Source: Wuchereria bancrofti
Taxonomy: Eukaryota > Nematoda > Chromadorea > Rhabditida > Onchocercidae
Length of the DNA stretch: 64,000 bases
Direction: 5' to 3'
Assembly: GCA_005281725.1 (NCBI GenBank)
Contig: SSBO01000009.1
Coordinates: 10,217,373 to 10,281,372 of the forward strand
Positions within the stretch are counted from its first letter, which is position 1. Every line of letters begins with the position of its first letter. The position numbers and the translations under genes were made by a program. Below, in pieces: positions 34,318 to 50,437 of the stretch. The notes under the pieces were generated by a model. It searched no databases. It had not been told where the DNA came from and saw nothing but the letters and a program-made list of their open reading frames with translations.

Positions 34318-34750
34318 TGTCGCTGGAAAGCGAGGAGAAGCTGTAAATGAATGATCTCTTTGTTCATAAATTGACCTCGCTTTACACACATTATACTGTA
34401 TGAGATATGTGAGAATTAAATGCATGTAATAGATATTGTAACAAAGAAATGTCTATCCTTAAACAAATTCCCTTTATTCCCAAATTCACATTTATCCAAC
34501 ACCATCTCTTAATTACAATTAATCATTGCTTTACAATTGTCCATTTATAGTGCGGTTGGGGTTTCAGCTCTCTTGTAATGATCAGCGTTTTATAACTGTG
34601 TAGCATCCGTGCAATATGTATAATGCGTTATTATGATGTTGATTAGTTTTATGTTAAATAAAGGTTTAATTACCCAAGTTTGAGGTGTCTACAATCAAAG
34701 AAACAGAAAGAACAGTCAAATTTTGTCACGGTTCTAGAAAAGCGACGACA
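34318..34750 (+). repeat. 5' LTR of the BEL/Pao element
   Basis: 433 bp, TGTCGC...GACGACA. Features are AATAAA at 34657-34662, SL1 at 34663-34684, and a 66-nt segment after SL1 that would be U5. It matches the 3' LTR base for base by eye. Confidence 0.95.
34663..34684 (+). promoter_or_regulatory. exact 22-nt SL1 spliced-leader sequence in the 5' LTR
   Basis: Begins GGTTTAATTACCC and ends AAGTTTGAG, identical to the conserved nematode SL1 exon (22 of 22). The AATAAA signal abuts it on the left, and GTGTCT follows on the right. It is not an SL RNA gene: the donor, Sm site and stem-loops are absent. It probably marks the RNA 5' end (U3/R boundary) of the element. Confidence 0.9.
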
Positions 34751-34758
34751 AAATTTTT

Positions 34759-34772
34759 TGGTCCAACCAGCC
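34759..34772 (+). promoter_or_regulatory. candidate primer-binding site
   Basis: TGGTCCAACCAGCC begins 8 nt after the LTR end. TGG is the complement of a tRNA CCA tail. The matching tRNA was not identified, so this is a positional call. Confidence 0.4.
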
Positions 34773-34859
34773 AGATCCGAACTACCGCGACCTAAGGATA
34801 CAATCAAACGAGAAGACGAAACACGTAGGTTTCATTCAGTTCAACTTAAAAGAAAGAAA

Positions 34860-36125
34860 ATGAGTGTAGAGGAGACAAGAAAGAAAAGTTCTCCATCCTA
34901 TCTCATCAGAAGAAATTTGCAATATCTTGAGAATACTGCAAAAAAGGCTGTTGAACAAGGAATAGAGCTGTGTGGAAAGAAACCGCCAGTGGAATTAAAT
35001 TATGAAGAAACAACAGAATGGTTAAAACAACAAAAATCTGATGTTGGGAAGCAAATAATAGTACTGGACGGGATAATTTCCAAGGCGAATAAATTAGAAG
35101 AAGAATGGAAGGAATTGTTACGTTCATTAGAGAATGGTGAATGGGAGAATGATGTTACATTATACGAAGAATATTGGTATGAAGAAGAATGTCTTTTTAA
35201 TTCAGGAAACAAGCTTTATAATGAAAGAGCGGCACTTCTAACAGAATTAAATAGGATAAATGAGGCACTAGTAGAAATGAAAATGAAGTGTGAAATTATT
35301 GAATCTACGCCAAAAGAAAAGAAGAGCCTAGAAGATTTAATTGAGAAGTTGGTCACTACCAGTAAGCCACCGACTTTAAATCCGGTAGAATTTGATGGCA
35401 ATATGAGAATGTGGGGTCAGTACATTAGTCAGTTCGAAGAATCAATTCACAAAAGAACTGATTTAACGCCCACACAGAAATTTATGCATCTATTAAGTAC
35501 TCTGAAAGGCGAAGCTAGAGAACATATAAGTGACCTCATGGTGAATGATGAAAATTATCCGCTGGCTATAAAGAATTTATATGAACGTTATGGAGATAAA
35601 AACCAAAGAATAAAAGAATTATATAAAAGTTTAGAAAAGGTTCGATATTCAAAGAAAGAACCGCACAGAATGATAAGAGAGCTTTTGAATTTATTGTCCC
35701 AGCTAAAAGGAATGGGGGAAAATATAGAAACGACACAACTGGACGTAATGGTAACCGATAGATTACCAGAAAGCATGGCCAAAGGCTTGAGAAGAATGAA
35801 ACTCAGAGATCCAGAATGGACAATGGAAAACACTATCAAATACCTGAAAGAAGAGATGAAAATCGAAGAAGAATATGAAGAGAAATCACAGGAGAGAATA
35901 AAAGACCTAATGTACAAGACAAATTTGCAACGGACAAAGCCAAGATTCACAAAATGGGAAAATAACATCAGACGTACGACAGTCTGCTCGACAGTAAAAC
36001 AAGTACCAACAATGTTTCCTAACAGAGCAACTCAAAAGAGTGAGTGGAATGGATTACCGCGCATCTTCTGTAAAAATAATCACTGGAATGACAAATGTGA
36101 TATATACCCTACCGTAGAAAAATGA
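34860..36125 (+). CDS. BEL/Pao gag segment, ends at in-frame TGA
   Basis: A 421-residue structural polyprotein segment. The first in-frame ATG is at 34860; the frame is open back into the LTR but has no earlier ATG. An N-terminal basic, coiled-coil-prone half (about 1-170) is followed by the Pao-type gag core (PVEFDGNMRMWGQYISQFEES, then a LKGEAREHISDL block), then a basic region. It ends with the start of the zinc-finger region (FCKNNHWNDKC) and VEK before TGA at 36123. The downstream segment continues in the same frame. It may form particle shells if translated. The TGA interrupts the nucleocapsid region, not an expected gag/pol junction, so it looks like a nonsense change, although readthrough cannot be excluded. 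Confidence 0.85.
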   Translation: MSVEETRKKSSPSYLIRRNLQYLENTAKKAVEQGIELCGKKPPVELNYEETTEWLKQQKSDVGKQIIVLDGIISKANKLEEEWKELLRSLENGEWENDVTLYEEYWYEEECLFNSGNKLYNERAALLTELNRINEALVEMKMKCEIIESTPKEKKSLEDLIEKLVTTSKPPTLNPVEFDGNMRMWGQYISQFEESIHKRTDLTPTQKFMHLLSTLKGEAREHISDLMVNDENYPLAIKNLYERYGDKNQRIKELYKSLEKVRYSKKEPHRMIRELLNLLSQLKGMGENIETTQLDVMVTDRLPESMAKGLRRMKLRDPEWTMENTIKYLKEEMKIEEEYEEKSQERIKDLMYKTNLQRTKPRFTKWENNIRRTTVCSTVKQVPTMFPNRATQKSEWNGLPRIFCKNNHWNDKCDIYPTVEK

Positions 36126-38591
36126 TTGGAGAAGTTGAAGAAATTGAGACTTTGTGAATTATGTTTAAAAAACGGCCACTTTCAAGAAGCTTGCATGAGA
36201 AAGATAAAATGTTTTTATTGTGGATCAAACCACAACAGTGCTTTATGTATGAAACGCGACGAAGTGGAAAAGCAAGACAAAATTTCCAAAGATAGTGAAA
36301 GGACAAACAGAACATCGAAGATAGTGGCGGCTACGGTTGCCAATGATGTGATTGGAGATAATAATACTCAAGAAACGTACATGATGTGTAAAGAAGTAAG
36401 GTTAATTAATCCAGAGGAACCAGAAAAAACATCAAATGCCTTATTTTTCTTTGATACAGGAAGTGATTGTAATTATATTACGGAATCAATGGTAAACAAA
36501 ATAGAATTGAAACAAACATCTGCGAGTGTGGGAATGTTAATAACAGGTTTAGTAGGCACAAAGAAATACGAAAGCCGAAAGATAACCTTCGGAGTTCAAA
36601 CGTTATCCGGAAAAAAGAGGAACATCCAAGCGTACGTTGTTGAATCAATACTCGAACGCGTACCATATCTAATAAACCATGATAACGAGAAATTAGTAGA
36701 AGGAAGATGGGGGAAGCCAGATGTACTATTAGGTGTGGAGGGAATTGCGAATTTACTCATTCGGAATTCCACAAAGCACCCACCAGGATGGGTGGTTATA
36801 GAAACAGAATTAGGAATGATCAAAGGCGGCAGGCAAAAGGTGGTACAAGATGAAGAGATAGGATATAGAAACAACAAATCTTATGAACTTCAAACCATTA
36901 CAAACATGTCAAAGAAGGAGTCGCAAATTTATATGGATCAGATAGAACAAACATGGAAATTCGAAGCAATCGGAATCAAAGACTTAATAACGGATTATCA
37001 GGAAGAAAAGGCGCTTGAGGCTTTTCAAAAATTGCTCGCTATAGACGAAGAAGGTAGATGTGTAGTGGGTTGGCCATGGAAAAACGAAGAAATCGTACCA
37101 GCAAAGGGATATGGATTGGCATGGGGACGACTACGATCTACAATACGGAAATTAAGGAAGTCTCCAGAATTATTGGAATATTACGACGAATATTTTAAAA
37201 ATTTACTGAATGAAGGAATCATAGAAAAGATAAAGAATCAGGATGAAACGGGGCGAGTATCATACCTTCCTCATCAGGCTGTAATATCACCTCAGAAATC
37301 CACTACCAAACTTAGAGTAGTGTTTGATGCATCAGCAAAGACAAATGAGGGCCCATCATTAAATGAATGCTTATATAAAGGACCAGTAATGATGCCATCA
37401 CTAATAGGAATTCTATTACGAGCCAGACAAGGACGTTACCTAGTGATAGCTGATGTAGAGAAAGCCTTTTTGCAAGTAAGCTTGTATCAGGAAGATAGAG
37501 ACGTCACTAGGTTTTTATGGCTTAAAGACAAATCAAAAGAAGTAACTCAGGAGAACCTAGTTACTTATCGCTTTAAACGAGTTCCCTTCGGCGTAATATC
37601 ATCGCCTTTTCTGTTAGCTGCTGTTATTAGACATCTACTGAATAAAGAAAACACTGAATTATCAGTAGAAATAGCAAAGAATCTCTATGTTGATAATATT
37701 GCAATAACCTCAGAAAGTGAGTTGGAATGTAACAGAAAAGCAAAGGAAGCAAAGGATATCTTTAAAAAGGCCAAGATGCACTTAAGAGAATTCCATGCAA
37801 ACTATAACATTAATATGGACTATGAACAAGAAATTCCAAGAAATACAACGATAAAACTGTTAGGGATCGAATGGAACAACAGCAAAGATGAATTCATTTG
37901 GAACTGGAAGATTCCAGAAGATGGCCTAAATAATAAACGTCAGATATTACAATTCTATGCTGCTATTTACGACCCACTGGGACTATTATGTCCACTCATA
38001 CTTCCATGGAAATTGTTAGTTCAAGACTTATGGAAGAAGGGTATGTCTTGGGACGAAAATTTAGAACCTGAAGAAATGAGACGCTGCATGGAATTAGAAA
38101 AGGCGTTCCGGCAACAGAAAATCATAAAGGTATCGAGATGGACACCACAAGAATGTTCCGAGATACATATATTTGTAGACGCATCTCAAAGAGCTGTTGG
38201 ATTAGCAGTATACTCACGTAGAAGCAATAGCACTCCAGGTGAACCAAAACTAATATACGGGAAGACAAGGTTAGTTCCAAAAAGAGAAAGTAGGAATAAG
38301 TCAGCCAGTATTCCTAGATTAGAGCTACTTGCTGTAACAATTGGGGTAAGAGTACTGGAATTCATCAAGCAAGAAATTTGTGTAGAAAAAACATATTTAT
38401 GGACAGATAGCGCTTGTGTCCTACATTGGTTAAGAAAACCGCCGATAGGATCCAAGTATATCTCAAACACAATTGACGAGATAAAACGAAGTAAAGATAT
38501 CGAATTCCGTCATGTAAGATCAGTCTGTAATCCAGCAGACCTAGCGTCACGAGGACTTCTCCCAGAAAAGTTGATAGAAAAATCGTTATGA
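36126..38591 (+). CDS. BEL/Pao pol segment: zinc knuckles, protease, RT, RNase H
   Basis: About 821 residues, open between two TGA codons. Counting from 36126: two zinc knuckles (C10-C13-H18-C23 and C29-C32-H36-C41); aspartic protease DTGS at 110-113; reverse transcriptase with catalytic Asp 443 (IADVEKAF) and YVDN at 521-524, a variant common in Pao elements; RNase H with Asp 685 (IFVDAS), then RLELLAV and LWTDSACVLHWL. It ends NPADLASRGL...EKSL before TGA at 38589-38591. The stop falls just before the WNGPSWL-type spacer typical of BEL/Pao pol. There is no ATG at the segment start, so expression would need readthrough of the upstream TGA. Domains are otherwise uninterrupted. Confidence 0.85.
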   Translation: MEKLKKLRLCELCLKNGHFQEACMRKIKCFYCGSNHNSALCMKRDEVEKQDKISKDSERTNRTSKIVAATVANDVIGDNNTQETYMMCKEVRLINPEEPEKTSNALFFFDTGSDCNYITESMVNKIELKQTSASVGMLITGLVGTKKYESRKITFGVQTLSGKKRNIQAYVVESILERVPYLINHDNEKLVEGRWGKPDVLLGVEGIANLLIRNSTKHPPGWVVIETELGMIKGGRQKVVQDEEIGYRNNKSYELQTITNMSKKESQIYMDQIEQTWKFEAIGIKDLITDYQEEKALEAFQKLLAIDEEGRCVVGWPWKNEEIVPAKGYGLAWGRLRSTIRKLRKSPELLEYYDEYFKNLLNEGIIEKIKNQDETGRVSYLPHQAVISPQKSTTKLRVVFDASAKTNEGPSLNECLYKGPVMMPSLIGILLRARQGRYLVIADVEKAFLQVSLYQEDRDVTRFLWLKDKSKEVTQENLVTYRFKRVPFGVISSPFLLAAVIRHLLNKENTELSVEIAKNLYVDNIAITSESELECNRKAKEAKDIFKKAKMHLREFHANYNINMDYEQEIPRNTTIKLLGIEWNNSKDEFIWNWKIPEDGLNNKRQILQFYAAIYDPLGLLCPLILPWKLLVQDLWKKGMSWDENLEPEEMRRCMELEKAFRQQKIIKVSRWTPQECSEIHIFVDASQRAVGLAVYSRRSNSTPGEPKLIYGKTRLVPKRESRNKSASIPRLELLAVTIGVRVLEFIKQEICVEKTYLWTDSACVLHWLRKPPIGSKYISNTIDEIKRSKDIEFRHVRSVCNPADLASRGLLPEKLIEKSL

Positions 38592-40187
38592 TGGAATGGC
38601 CCATCATGGTTGTCGAAACCAAAGGAAAGATGGCCAGAGGATGAAATCATGAAAGAAAACATCATGAGTGTGTGTATGGCTATGGGACTGATGGAGGAAG
38701 AAACAATACAATCAGAACAAGTTTGTACAACCTTAATAGATGTGGCCCGGTTCTCATCCTTACGCAAATTGATGAGAACAATATTGTACGTCCTCCGGTT
38801 CATCGCGAAGGTGTCAAAAGAAAAGATACGAAGTTTGATAGGATTTTCAAAAGAGAATTTTACTTCTAAAGAATATGATAGAGCAACGAAAATAATAGTT
38901 AAAATGGCACAGTTAAACATAACTCGAAAGGAAATTGAACACTGGGGTTTAAAAAAGGACCAGAATGGAATCTGGAGATGTGTTGGAAGGCTTAGAAGAA
39001 CTATGCCCGAAATTGAAGACTTCCCATGTTTTATCAATAAAGGAAAGTTTGCAGAATTAATAGTGAAGCATTATCATGAAAATTCATTCCATGCAAGTGT
39101 ACACTACACTTGGAGCAAGATGAGAGAGCGGTATTGGATCCCACATGGACGATCATATATTAAGAAAATCCTGCGAAAGATTTGCAAAGGTTGTACTATG
39201 TGGATAGCTAAGCCATTTGAACAACCAGACTTCCCTCCTTATCCCATCGCTAGAGTCGCAGGAACAAGACCGTTCGATACAGTCGGTTTAGACTTGTTTG
39301 GACCGATTATAATAAAAGAGAATCATGTGATTACCAAACGATGGGTGGCTTTATTTACATGTCTCACGATTCGAGCAGTGCATCTCGAAGTAATAGAAAA
39401 TATGTCTACTGAACAATGCATACAAGCATTTAGAAGATTCATAAGCAGAAGGAAACAACCGAAATGCATAATTTCGGATAATGCCAAGAATTTTATAGCA
39501 GCTTCCAAAATACTTATAGAACTAAGCACTGTAGAGTGCGAAACAATGGAGTGGGAATTTATTACGCCAGGCGCCCCTTGGCAAGGTGGCGTTTATGAAA
39601 GAATGGTAGGTGTAGTTAAAGGAACTTTAAGAAAGGCCATAGGTAAAAAGTTTCTTAACAATGGAGAACTAATAACTCTCATCGCTGAACTTGAAGCTAT
39701 CATCAACGAAAGACCTTTGGTAGATATTGAAGAAATAGGTCTAGTATTGAAACCTGGAGATTTTCTGAATCCAGGCTCAGCTAAAGGAGAACATTTAACG
39801 GAAGACAACGTTTATCGTAAAGATAAAACGATATGTAGAAAAGAAAATTTACAAATAGATGCATTAGCGCATCAGTACAAGAATACATGCAAAAGAATTG
39901 ACCATCTATGGAAAATATGGAGAGAAGAATACTTAGAAGAATTAAGGAAACGGGCTCAACGTAAACACCGAGGACCTCGAAGCAAAATTCGAAGAGAACC
40001 CGAAATAAATGAGTTGGTATTATTGAAAGGAGATTGTCCCAGAAATAGTTGGAGAATGGGAAGAGTCGCCAGACTCATTAGGGGCAAAGACAGTATTTGT
40101 CGATCAGCGGTTGTAAAATTAGCTAACAGAAAGGAGTTGGTGAGAGCAGTAGGACATCTCTATCCCTTAGAGGTCTCCGACAAATAA
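38592..40187 (+). CDS. BEL/Pao pol segment: integrase
   Basis: 531 residues after the second TGA, in the same frame, ending with TAA 30 bp before the 3' LTR. It opens with the WNGPSWL spacer. A zinc-binding HHCC-type region follows (HYHENSFHASVHYTWSKMR, then ICKGC). The DDE core has Asp at 39291 (GLDLFGP), Asp at 39477 (ISDNAKNF) and Glu at 39597 (GGVYERMV). The C-terminus ends with the small beta domain typical of BEL/Pao (WRMGRV...VVKLANRK...LYPLE). Catalytic residues are present. Without readthrough it cannot be made from the genomic frame as one polyprotein. Confidence 0.85.
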   Translation, partial: WNGPSWLSKPKERWPEDEIMKENIMSVCMAMGLMEEETIQSEQVCTTLIDVARFSSLRKLMRTILYVLRFIAKVSKEKIRSLIGFSKENFTSKEYDRATKIIVKMAQLNITRKEIEHWGLKKDQNGIWRCVGRLRRTMPEIEDFPCFINKGKFAELIVKHYHENSFHASVHYTWSKMRERYWIPHGRSYIKKILRKICKGCTMWIAKPFEQPDFPPYPIARVAGTRPFDTVGLDLFGPIIIKENHVITKRWVALFTCLTIRAVHLEVIENMSTEQCIQAFRRFISRRKQPKCIISDNAKNFIAASKILIELSTVECETMEWEFITPGAPWQGGVYERMVGVVKGTLRKAIGKKFLNNGELITLIAELEAIINERPLVDIEEIGLVLKPGDFLNPGSAKGEHLTEDNVYRKDKTICRKENLQIDALAHQYKNTCKRIDHLWKIWREEYLEELRKRAQRKHRGPRSKIRREPEINELVLLKGDCPRNSWRMGRVARLIRGKDSICRSAVVKLANRKELVRAVGHLYPLEVSDK

Positions 40188-40210
40188 AGAAGTTGAAACA
40201 ATAGCTCGCC

Positions 40211-40217
40211 TCGGGAG
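40211..40217 (+). promoter_or_regulatory. candidate polypurine tract
   Basis: A short purine-rich run ending CGGGAG sits immediately before the 3' LTR. That is the position where plus-strand synthesis would be primed. The run is short, so the call is tentative. Confidence 0.35.
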
Positions 40218-40650
40218 TGTCGCTGGAAAGCGAGGAGAAGCTGTAAATGAATGATCTCTTTGTTCATAAATTGACCTCGCTTTACACACATTATACTGTA
40301 TGAGATATGTGAGAATTAAATGCATGTAATAGATATTGTAACAAAGAAATGTCTATCCTTAAACAAATTCCCTTTATTCCCAAATTCACATTTATCCAAC
40401 ACCATCTCTTAATTACAATTAATCATTGCTTTACAATTGTCCATTTATAGTGCGGTTGGGGTTTCAGCTCTCTTGTAATGATCAGCGTTTTATAACTGTG
40501 TAGCATCCGTGCAATATGTATAATGCGTTATTATGATGTTGATTAGTTTTATGTTAAATAAAGGTTTAATTACCCAAGTTTGAGGTGTCTACAATCAAAG
40601 AAACAGAAAGAACAGTCAAATTTTGTCACGGTTCTAGAAAAGCGACGACA
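40218..40650 (+). repeat. 3' LTR of the BEL/Pao element
   Basis: 433 bp, apparently identical to the 5' LTR, at an offset of exactly 5900 bp. It carries AATAAA at 40557-40562 and SL1 at 40563-40584. RNA 3' ends directed by this signal would fall at or just past the SL1 copy. Confidence 0.95.
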
Positions 40651-42124
40651 AATATCATAATTAACATCACAAATTATCACAAGTAAAGGTTCATTTGTAA
40701 TAAGTAATTAACAGATAAAGTTTTAAAAAAAAAATTCAAAATTAAATTACTCAATGTAAGGAATTGTTAATCATTCAATAATATTAGTTAATATTAAAGA
40801 TCAAATAGAATAATGAAAACAAATTGCAACAGAACTATATTTTAAATCATTTTCAAAATAGCACTATATTATAATTGCCAACAAAAAAATTATTACGTCT
40901 TGGCCAGTATTTGCAATTTAATTCTTTCATAAATCATTTTTAAATTATTCATATAAAATGGGTGAAAAAAATAAGAAAGAACGAAAAAATTATTCGAATT
41001 TTAGAAAATTTCATAATTTTATTTTTATTGACTTGATACTTATTACGCTTACTTATACTTAATCTATTTTATTTTACTAGGCGAAATATTTATTATTATG
41101 CATAATCATTTCCAATTAAAATAGGTTTCTAAATTTAGATAATTTCATATATTTTTATATTTTGTAACTATACGTGCGTGAAGTACCGTAAAGCGACGTT
41201 TCAAATGAGATTATCAAATTTTAAATGAGATTTTTTTTTTTAAATGACTTTATTACATTCTGATTTAATGTGTCAACAATTTATTTTAGAAAGATAATCG
41301 ATAATGATAAGCAAAATGATCATTTAATATAATCTCAAATATTCAATGAGATAAGATTCAAATTGAAAGTAATCAAAATAGCTGAATAGTTGGGATGCAG
41401 AAATATTCTTTTATAAAATTAACCTAAAAATTTTGTTATCTATTAAAAAATATTCAATTCTAACTTTCTTTTTCTCATTTTAAAATATGCTATCAAAATC
41501 AAAAGTATATCATTCATTCTTATCTTTACAGAGAATTGAATTAATAATTTGAAATTTTTACACGAATAGTAATTTGTATTAATAAATTTGGATTCAAATA
41601 CCATCCAGTGTTTGACATTAATTGAAAATAACCGTGCCAACTACACTATCAACAAGTAAGTCGAATATTTCAATTTTAAAATTTTTAATTCAGTAATTTT
41701 GCCGTATAGTAATTGTTAAATTATCATTTATTAAATTCATCAGCCAAAAAAATTATTATTATTATAATTTCATTTCATTCAAAAAATGAGCAAAAAAATT
41801 TGTTCAATATTAGCATTTGCTTCTTTTTCAAATTTTTCTACAAATTTGATATTTCTTCAAATGATATTTTTTTCGAAAAGTGACAAAATTTTGAAATTAT
41901 TAAATATCATTTTTTAGCTTTTTTTTGTTCTCTTAAAGCATATCAAATTAATGGCTTCAAGTAATGGAACATTTTATTCTTATTTTAATTACTTCTTATT
42001 TTAATTTTAGTATATTTATTTAATTAGTAAACTTAGTAAATTACTTGAAACATTCTTTTTTGTTATATTTTTGCATGAATTTTTGCAATGAATCATATTT
42101 TAAATGTACCAAAATATCACACAA
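40651..42124. other. AT-rich, no gene
   Basis: No coding or structural signal recognised between the 3' LTR and the ambiguous base at 42125. Confidence 0.5.
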
Positions 42125-45812: not shown

Positions 45813-46781
45813 CTAAGAACGCACATTACAAAATGATAAAGGATTTTTTAAATTTGTAACACCAAATTCAACATCAAATCCATCCCTATTACCTTCTGAA
45901 TTTTGGATTTTGTATGAATTAAGCGGTTCCAATTTTGCCATCACTACTTCGCTTTCAATCTCCAAAAAGTCTGGTTTACACTGACCATTCACCCAAATCT
46001 TGTCTCGATTACAATCTATGCTATCAACCGCACCTAAAACTTTTATAATCTCTACGAATAAAATTACCGAGCCAGAAAAAAAATTGATTCAATCTTTTAA
46101 GAAAAAATTATTCCTACATTCACAATTAACTGATTTGAAACAACTTAAAAACTTACTGATTTTTTTAATACTATTCTCAGTCTGTAAAATTTCATACAGA
46201 TAATATTTGGCAGAAAAATTGAATTGAAAAACGGCGAGAAAAACGGAAAACTTACCCTTCATTACGAAATCTGCAGCAACGGCCACAACGCCACCACCCA
46301 TACCATCATCCCCACCACCCATCATACCACCACCATCACCACCCATCATACCATCACCCCCACCACCCATCATACCATCACCCCCACCACCCATCATACC
46401 ACCCCCATCACCACCGTTCATACCACCACCATTCATACCACCGTTCATCATACCACCACCGTTCATACCGCCACCGTTCATACCACCACCACCGTTCATC
46501 ATATCACCACCACCGTTCATCATACCACCATCACCACCGTTCATCATGCCACCACCACCGTTCATCATACCATCACCACCACCGTTCATCATACCACCAC
46601 CACCGTTCATCATACCATCACCACCACCGTTCATCATACCACCACCACCGTTCATCATACTACCACCACTATCGTTCATCATACCACCACCGCCATCCAT
46701 CATACGATTAGCAGGTTGCATTGGTGCATTACTGCTGGTGCAGAAAATAATATAAACAAAGAGTAAATGTCTTCTTGCCAT
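45813..46781 (-). CDS. secreted Gly/Met/Asn-repeat protein, left copy
   Basis: Two exons, 46781-46256 and 46051-45813, give about 254 residues. The start MARRHLLFVYIIFC is a signal peptide. A repeat domain of GGGMMN/GGDGMMGG units (about residues 30-150) follows, then VVAVAADFVMK and a 79-residue non-repetitive C-terminal domain (GAVDSIDCNRDKIWVNGQC...SEGNRDGFDVEFGV) with three cysteines. A TTCTTCAG acceptor lies 35 nt upstream of the ATG, fitting SL trans-splicing. The intron (about 204 bp) has GTAAG and TCGTAG ends. The family is not recognised. The right copy is the head-to-head partner, with the same C-terminal exon but a different repeat number. The His/Thr-rich antisense reading is an artefact. 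Confidence 0.72.
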
Positions 46782-49303: not shown

Positions 49304-50437
49304 ATGGCAAGAAGACATTTACTCTTTGTTTATATTATTTTCTGCACCAGCAATAATGCACCAATGCAACCTGCTGCTGTCAGGGATGAAGGTGGTGCGG
49401 TAGAGGATGGTGATATGGACGGTGGTATGATGGATGGTGATGGTGGTGGCGATGGTGGTGGTATGATGAACGGTGGTGGTATGATGAACGGTAGTGGTGG
49501 TGATATGATGAACGGTGGTGGAGGTATGATGAACGGTGGTGGTGGTGGAGGTATGATGAACGGTGGTGGTGGTGGAGGTATGATGAACGGTGGTGGTGGT
49601 GGAGGCGATGGTGGTGGTATGATGGGTGGTGATGGTGGTGGTGGTGGCGGCGATGGTGGTGGTGGTGGCGATGGTGGTGGTGGTATGATGGGTGGTGATG
49701 GTGGTGGTATGATGGGTGGTGATGGTGGTGGTGGCGATGGTGGTGGTGGTATGATGGGTGGTGATGGTGGTGGTGGCGATGGTGGTGGTGGTATGATGGG
49801 TGGTGATGGTGGTGGTATGATGGGTGGTGATGGTGGTGGTATGATGGGTGGTGATGGTGGTGGTATGATGGGTGGTGATGGTGGTGGTGGCGATGGTGGT
49901 GGTGGTGATGGTGGTGGTATGATGGGTGGTGATGGTGGTGGTGGCGATGGTGGTGGTGGTGATGGTGGTGGTGTTGTGGCCGTTGCTGCAGATTTCGTAA
50001 TGAAGGGTAAGTTTTCTGTTTTTCAATTCAATTTTTCTGCCAAATATTATCTCTATGAAATGTTACAGACTGAGAATAGTATTAAAAAAATCAGTAAGTT
50101 TTTAAGTTGTTTCAAATCAGTTAATTGTGAATGTAGGAATAATTTTTTCTTAAAAGATTGAATCAATTTTTTTTCTGGCTCGGTAATTTTATTCGTAGAG
50201 ATTATAAAAGTTTTAGGTGCGGTTGATAGCATAGATTGTAATCGAGACAAGATTTGGGTGAATGGTCAGTGTAAACCAGACTTTTTGGAGATTGAAAGCG
50301 AAGTAGTGATGGCAAAATTGGAACCGCTTAATTCATACAAAATCCAAAATTCAGAAGGTAATAGGGATGGATTTGATGTTGAATTTGGTGTTACAAATTT
50401 AAAAAATCCTTTATCATTTTGTAATGTGCGTTCTTAG
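49304..50437 (+). CDS. secreted Gly/Met/Asp-repeat protein, right copy
   Basis: Two exons, 49304-50006 and 50199-50437, give about 313 residues: 234 codons in exon 1 against 175 in the left copy. Signal peptide MARRHLLFVYIIFC, an acidic start (RDEGGAVEDGDMDGG), then a longer array of GGDGGGMMGG and MMNGGGG units, then VVAVAADFVMK. The second exon has the same 239-nt length as in the left copy. The intron is 192 bp (GT...TAG). An acceptor (TATCTTCAG) precedes the ATG by a few tens of bases. Low-complexity Gly/Met sequence suggests a structural or matrix role outside the cell, but no family was recognised. Repeat-length change with preserved frame implies that the protein is still translated, or that the duplication is very young. 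Confidence 0.72.

Follow-up and report, generated by a model that had tools for sequence, protein, structure and literature searches.

The SL1 spliced leader exon in LTRs of BEL/Pao retrotransposons of Wuchereria bancrofti, at the junctions of unlike U3 and U5

In Brugia malayi, 316 SL1 signatures have been reported, of which 196 were counted as SL1 genes and 120 lie outside them (PMC7181701). Sixty SL1s are no more than 1 kb away from a PAO element, and now and then an element is flanked by two SL1s on the same strand; the authors propose that the leader is added to expressed elements, which then integrate (PMC7181701). Some transcripts of Cer1, a Ty3-like element of C. elegans, receive SL1 by trans-splicing (PMC3315495), and 30.9% and 29.7% of the transposon long reads from two strains of Hydra begin with a spliced leader (PMC12220107). 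The term "spliced leader" is absent from the main texts of two papers on BEL/Pao and Tas elements (PMC3118150 and PMC554778). Within the open-licence literature searched, no report of SL1 inside LTRs was found.

Here we describe an element of Wuchereria bancrofti that carries the exact SL1 exon in both of its LTRs. It lies in a 64-kb window, by which we mean the whole stretch of DNA that was analysed. The locus is like the PAO-flanking SL1s of B. malayi, as the main text of PMC7181701 presents them, in having the same exon, the same element class and what is there sometimes a same-strand pair. The first-pass annotation of this DNA could not say whether SL1 had been described in other nematode LTR elements; the Brugia report partly supplies the answer, since it places SL1 near PAO elements and its main text does not mention a position in the LTR.

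A BEL/Pao element with SL1 in both LTRs

The window contains two direct repeats (34318-34752 and 40218-40652) that are identical over 435 nt, namely the LTRs and two common bases past their ends. The features of the element are as follows.

34318..34750, + strand: 5' LTR of 433 bp (TGTCGC...ACGACA), the same as the 3' LTR; its ends are backed by target duplications
34318..34662, + strand: putative U3, with 13 ATGs
34657..34662, + strand: AATAAA directly before SL1, a putative poly(A) signal judged by sequence
34663..34684, + strand: exact SL1 exon in the 5' LTR, putative start of R
34685..34750, + strand: rest of R and U5, type a, beginning GTGTCTACAATC
34759..34776, + strand: candidate primer binding site, judged from the sequence alone, beginning TGGTCCAACCAGCC
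34833..34839, + strand: CATTCAG, a possible splice acceptor 20 nt 5' of the first ATG
34860..36122, + strand: gag-like frame (DUF1759), opening at the first ATG after SL1 (34860); TGA at 36123
36126..38588, + strand: protease/RT part (DUF1758, RVT_1, Peptidase_A17); TGA at 38589
38592..40184, + strand: integrase part (Integrase_H2C2, DUF5641), of which 38610-40184 was scanned for domains; TAA at 40185
40212..40217, + strand: purine-rich CGGGAG before the 3' LTR, a putative polypurine tract; the same letters stand directly 5' of the 3' LTR of another element, L047
40218..40650, + strand: 3' LTR of 433 bp, identical to the 5' LTR
40563..40584, + strand: exact SL1 exon in the 3' LTR

The element is a BEL/Pao LTR retrotransposon, as the annotation had named it, because its internal pieces match the Pfam domains DUF1759, DUF1758, RVT_1 (E-value 3.7e-12), Peptidase_A17 of the Pao type (PF05380, 3.9e-38), Integrase_H2C2 (9.2e-8) and DUF5641; rve is matched only below its Pfam cut-off. 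Paired direct LTRs with TG...CA ends are present. Both stops that interrupt the frames (36123 and 38589) are TGA. The element has no env gene, as just 30 nt (40188-40217) separate the integrase stop from the 3' LTR. A tRNA scan of the 64-kb window found no tRNA. Two further frames of the window, 46089-46781 (230 aa) and 49304-50161 (285 aa), are unconnected with the element.

A 5-bp target duplication surrounds 11 of 19 LTRs of the same type (type a) that have long flanks, a set that includes the window's own two, and all 11 are single LTRs. The window copy has no target duplication (its flanks read AAACT and AATAT) despite its identical LTRs, and given this combination it is possibly a recombinant copy.

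In each 433-bp LTR the SL1 exon occupies positions 346-367. A sequence scan finds both copies without a mismatch, in agreement with the annotation, and, even at a tolerance of 3 mismatches, no other SL1 match in the window. The annotation had also regarded a chance 22-mer as essentially excluded. The same tolerance gave a mean of 0.01 matches in 100 shuffles of the window, and in the genome (86.5 Mb, 108 contigs) the exact 22-mer occurs 243 times and the reversed control pattern not once; a chance origin is accordingly rejected.

SL1 sites across the genome

Sites with at most one mismatch to SL1 number 330 genome-wide. Two further sets of sequences, viral_contigs and genome_contigs, contain no exact copy of the 22-mer. 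The GTAA that follows the exon in SL RNA stands directly 3' of SL1 at just 11 of the 243 exact sites; six of these were examined, and four are SL RNA genes and two are LTR-like. The four genes (L009-L012) score 112-123 bits against the SL1 RNA family of Rfam (RF00198), and SL1 RNA genes were found beside 5S rRNA. The window itself has no match to RF00198 at the gathering score, and the presence of an SL RNA gene in it is rejected on that ground.

Flanks were examined at 141 of the 243 exact sites. Apart from the four SL RNA genes, all of them (137) are in LTR-like repeats, so that further copies bearing SL1, on which the annotation had made its reading depend, do exist. These 141 are a non-random sample (a listed 100, matches of the LTR search, all 20 c-type places and 34 of the 49 b-type places), and as sites were mostly picked by exact SL1, the census cannot tell how many LTRs are without it. 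Nine types of U5 (a to i) account for 135 of the 137 LTR-like sites; the other two are unclassified downstream and both have the common U3. Paired LTRs that enclose Pao-type proteins were observed for three types only: type a in the window, type c in L047 and type e at C8:556246 and 560624. The other types are probably LTRs too, judging from the common U3, CGACA ends or a primer-site-like stretch.

Neither the base preceding SL1 nor those following it are constant among the types, so that the common unit is the 22-nt exon itself. A conserved splice donor 3' of SL1 was considered and rejected, as GT opens the downstream side, in its common form, in just five of the nine types (a, b, c, e and h). 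ATAAA occurs shortly after SL1 in types e, f, g and h, and AATAAA stands directly before it in the U3 called U3A; types with the U3 called U3_3 have neither AATAAA before SL1 nor ATAAA after it. In c-type LTRs just 11 nt lie between SL1 and the likely LTR end. Inverted pairs of SL1 about 3 kb apart were also seen (C2:945138/948264, C3:9164250/9167133 and C3:9175886/9178769), and their flanks are identical or nearly so as far as shown.

The association with BEL/Pao elements was counted over about 59 Mb, where all exact SL1 places were listed. Pao-peptidase matches number 116 in all, many of them weak or broken, and the 19 with at least 75 bits were counted. SL1 lies within 6 kb on the same strand at 10 of the 19 and on the opposite strand at 2, against a chance expectation of 0.01 per match. 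The other nine have no same-strand SL1 within 6 kb. At two of these nine loci, whose sequence was examined, there is neither SL1 with up to 3 mismatches nor a repeat pair flanking the match; each has one short direct repeat, of 126 and 90 nt.

Conservation was measured in the family of the window's LTR. A whole-LTR similarity search gave 27 diverged copies, in 24 of which SL1 could be scored, and it is exact in 16 of the 24. The mismatch rate is 2.8% in SL1, 7.2% in the preceding 22 nt and 3.2% in the following 22 nt, compared with a median of 5.1% over 22-nt windows; as 90 of 411 such windows are lower than SL1, strong conservation within the family is rejected, and the family gives no clear indication that SL1 is under selection. 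Among 30 LTR loci examined, SL1 is exact in 19 and changed in 8, and the remaining 3 have alignments that break off within it. Retention of SL1 across families is suggested by sites that were themselves chosen for exact SL1.

Mosaic LTRs with junctions at SL1

The LTRs are mosaics of unlike U3 and U5, with their junctions at SL1. One U3 cluster is joined to U5 of types a, b, c, d and f, and also to type h, whose LTRs have two SL1s; U3_3 is joined to types b and i, and U3_4 to types c and g. In 36 pairs of a-type and b-type LTRs, drawn from 6 sites each of 23 and 38, U3 is 87% identical and U5 46%, which is the level of shuffled U5. The U3 identity is weaker in a-c pairs (65%) and a-d pairs (57%); the shuffled control belongs to the U5 comparison.

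From the start of the LTR through SL1, the window element and L047 have 87% DNA identity, which also takes in about 30 nt before the 3' LTR. Their internal DNA gives no blastn match at 1e-4, and their proteins, compared piece by piece, are 25-54% identical, the 54% spanning 35 residues. The two LTRs of L047 do not differ in U3 or in the short U5, which is what LTR formation by reverse transcription would be expected to give. In L047 an N follows the 5' LTR, and the primer site is not seen.

The reverse arrangement, a shared downstream side under unlike U3s, occurs as well. L129, L137 and L133 are 95-96% identical over the 130 nt 3' of SL1 (U5, primer site and leader), and the U3 of L133 is 54% identical to that of L129 or L137, which are 65% identical to each other. 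L131 compared with L129 and L137 is less sharp (84-85% downstream, 55-63% in U3). In 8 pairs, which are not independent, the ten bases 5' of SL1 never match and the first six 3' of it match in 8 of 8; some likeness persists further upstream. L130 and L103 differ downstream as well (0.55-0.64). In L130 the end of U5, the primer site and the start of the leader form a tandem repeat 3' of SL1, and in L103 the leader runs into an inverted piece of LTR.

Alignments between types behave similarly. Among the blast alignments listed, at most nine per site, those between types often end between +21 and +26, with SL1 base 0 as the origin of the count, or start at 0. Some start at the first base of SL1 or stop at its last; many either end 2-4 bases past SL1 or set in 3 to about 120 bases upstream of it, and not all junctions therefore fall at SL1. 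Three sites on C12, 7 to 9 kb apart (L041, L042 and L043), have a 93% likeness to the window LTR that ends inside SL1. On these comparisons SL1 appears to be the hinge that joins U3 and U5 of different BEL/Pao families, which is a stronger finding than capture alone.

Several LTRs contain SL1 twice. The copies are 54 nt apart in L076, L109, L150 and L152, 124 nt apart in L061 and 121 nt apart in L068, and L082 and L142 are altered forms of such an LTR. In the double-SL1 LTRs the second SL1 starts at base 1 and adjoins unrelated sequence, which would fit a cDNA end at the 5' end of an RNA.

An extra TTTGAG follows SL1, or an SL1-like stretch, in type e (L126), in the window family (L036, where it coexists with another insertion) and in an older family (L122, L123, where it occurs twice, and L124). 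A search for SL1 followed by TTTGAG with at most one mismatch gave 14 matches, of which 3 are exact, 2 are changed elsewhere and 9 read ATTGAG; these nine resemble type d (5 are d sites already examined) and are not a TTTGAG duplication. No other tandem duplication of at least 4 nt was found in 30 aligned LTR copies by a scan that missed the one in L036 and is thus insensitive. The duplications may be scars of trans-splicing, and replication slippage is a possible source as well. The older family (L122, L123 and L124) is a separate LTR-like one that has AATAAA as well as its SL1-like stretch and the extra TTTGAG; its downstream side faintly resembles type a. In the type e element L125/L126 (C8:555900-560900), a duplication of about 80 bp and the TTTGAG distinguish the two LTRs from each other; on the element's 5' side, U5 leads past an N into protease-like sequence, and it is a mosaic or a deleted copy.

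Origin and role of SL1 in the LTRs

To our knowledge, distant LTR retroelement families do not readily trade U3 and U5, their R regions being unlike. First-strand transfer between two co-packaged RNAs is an established retroviral mechanism, and a common R would give rise to mosaics through it in the ordinary way. We consider it probable, with some reserve, that SL1 was captured from trans-spliced RNA, came to serve as a common R and permitted the exchange of U3 and U5 during first-strand transfer. The capture would have taken place when an SL1-trans-spliced RNA of an element was reverse transcribed, so that the 22-nt exon entered an element. The exact 22-nt edges on both sides argue for a spliced exon and against an SL RNA gene as its source. 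The annotation had proposed capture from a trans-spliced copy of the element's own RNA; the edges agree with a spliced exon, and the event is not this element's alone.

The captured SL1 would then form the 5' part of R, perhaps nearly all of it, and SL1 would mark the boundary between U3 and R. R is likely to be short and to include SL1, because AATAAA stands directly before SL1 and so little follows it in c-type LTRs. The genomic RNA would begin with SL1, and its end would lie a short way past a second SL1. The ATGs, like the preceding signs, bear on this indirectly: the window element has no other ATG from SL1 to that of gag, compared with the 13 in U3. If first-strand transfer needs only SL1, minus-strand strong-stop DNA could jump to the RNA 3' end of another element, and the product would be an LTR with the U3 of one family and the U5 of the other. 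U3s, the would-be carriers of promoters, may have moved in this way between distantly related BEL/Pao lineages. That R is SL1 is the most likely reason for the U3/U5 junctions at SL1; paired LTRs were observed for types a, c and e only. Junctions at SL1 would, if so, record RNA 5' ends in DNA.

Other readings account for parts of this evidence. As the 22 nt are identical, SL1 could have come from insertion into, or a copy of, an SL RNA gene; we give this practically no chance, since the window has no RF00198 match where the four genes reach 112-123 bits, and none of the 137 LTR-like contexts has evident SL RNA sequence past the exon. The exon could instead be a passive fossil, left when an SL1-bearing RNA was reverse transcribed once and copied along since then without a role, a reading close to that in PMC7181701 as far as its main text sets it out. 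SL1 decays in old copies much as the rest of the LTR does, as this would have it, but it is also exact in LTRs that have become unalignable in U3 and U5, and junctions gather at it (the alignment ends, L047, and L129/L137 compared with L133), and we regard a fossil as quite unlikely. The chimeras might also have been made by DNA recombination between SL1-bearing LTRs rather than by strand transfer, for which SL1 offers a 22-bp stretch common to many places. This we think decidedly unlikely, as the two LTRs of L047 have the same make-up, which one exchange would not give, although L047 is one element only.

Two further readings give SL1 a lasting function. In one, SL1 is retained for a core promoter or initiator function like that in SL RNA genes, whose promoter has been reported to include the 22 nt (in Ascaris). 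Transcription of LTRs and SL RNA genes alike would begin at base 1 of SL1, which fits an R that is SL1, but U3 and the upstream sequence of the four SL RNA genes have no likeness by eye; we judge this reading unlikely. In the other, SL1 is rewritten in each cycle: transcription begins further upstream, in U3, and the primary transcript is trans-spliced, with the encoded SL1 as landing site. Splicing at the last AG of SL1 would be silent, and splicing at its inner AG (CCCAAG/TTTGAG) would give the TTTGAG duplication, which is seen in three settings (L126; L036; L122/L123/L124). Perfect SL1 on unlike LTRs would also follow. However, GAG and AAG are poor splice acceptors in nematodes, slippage yields the same duplication and the settings are only three, and we hold rewriting to be unlikely.

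A broader form of the common-R reading is that the BEL/Pao community as a whole uses the host's SL1 as a universal R, kept exact because host trans-splicing rewrites the element RNA, with the families pooling exchangeable U3 promoters. We offer it as speculation with a low probability. Were it true, any SL1-bearing RNA in a particle would be a legal partner in first-strand transfer, and the same 22 nt could even admit trans-spliced host mRNAs to reverse transcription. If a host-supplied exon does serve as common R, promoters would spread among retroelements independently of the coding genes, and trans-splicing would become a part of retroelement evolution.

The known systems resemble this one in different respects. 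The Tas subfamily (Ascaris Tas and Cer7 of C. elegans) is like the window element in its Gag-PR-RT-IN order, its Pao peptidase family and its LTRs; Tas and Cer7 have a reported env and the window element has none, though not every member need have one. The SL1 of Cer1 is joined by trans-splicing to a spliced subgenomic RNA, at an internal acceptor, and the text of that report does not describe an SL1 encoded in the LTR, such as the window element has (PMC3315495). In Hydra the trans-splicing is at the RNA level only, and the account of it does not mention an LTR-encoded leader (PMC12220107). In B. malayi the share of SL1 genes differs, with 196 of 316 signatures counted as genes compared with only 11 of 243 exact sites followed by GTAA here (PMC7181701). 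Its main text describes the SL1s as flanking the elements and does not mention a position in the LTR, R, exact edges, mosaics or swapping (PMC7181701). Measured against that text, the present analysis adds the position of SL1 inside the LTR, the exact exon edges, the many types of LTR that carry it and the exchange at SL1.
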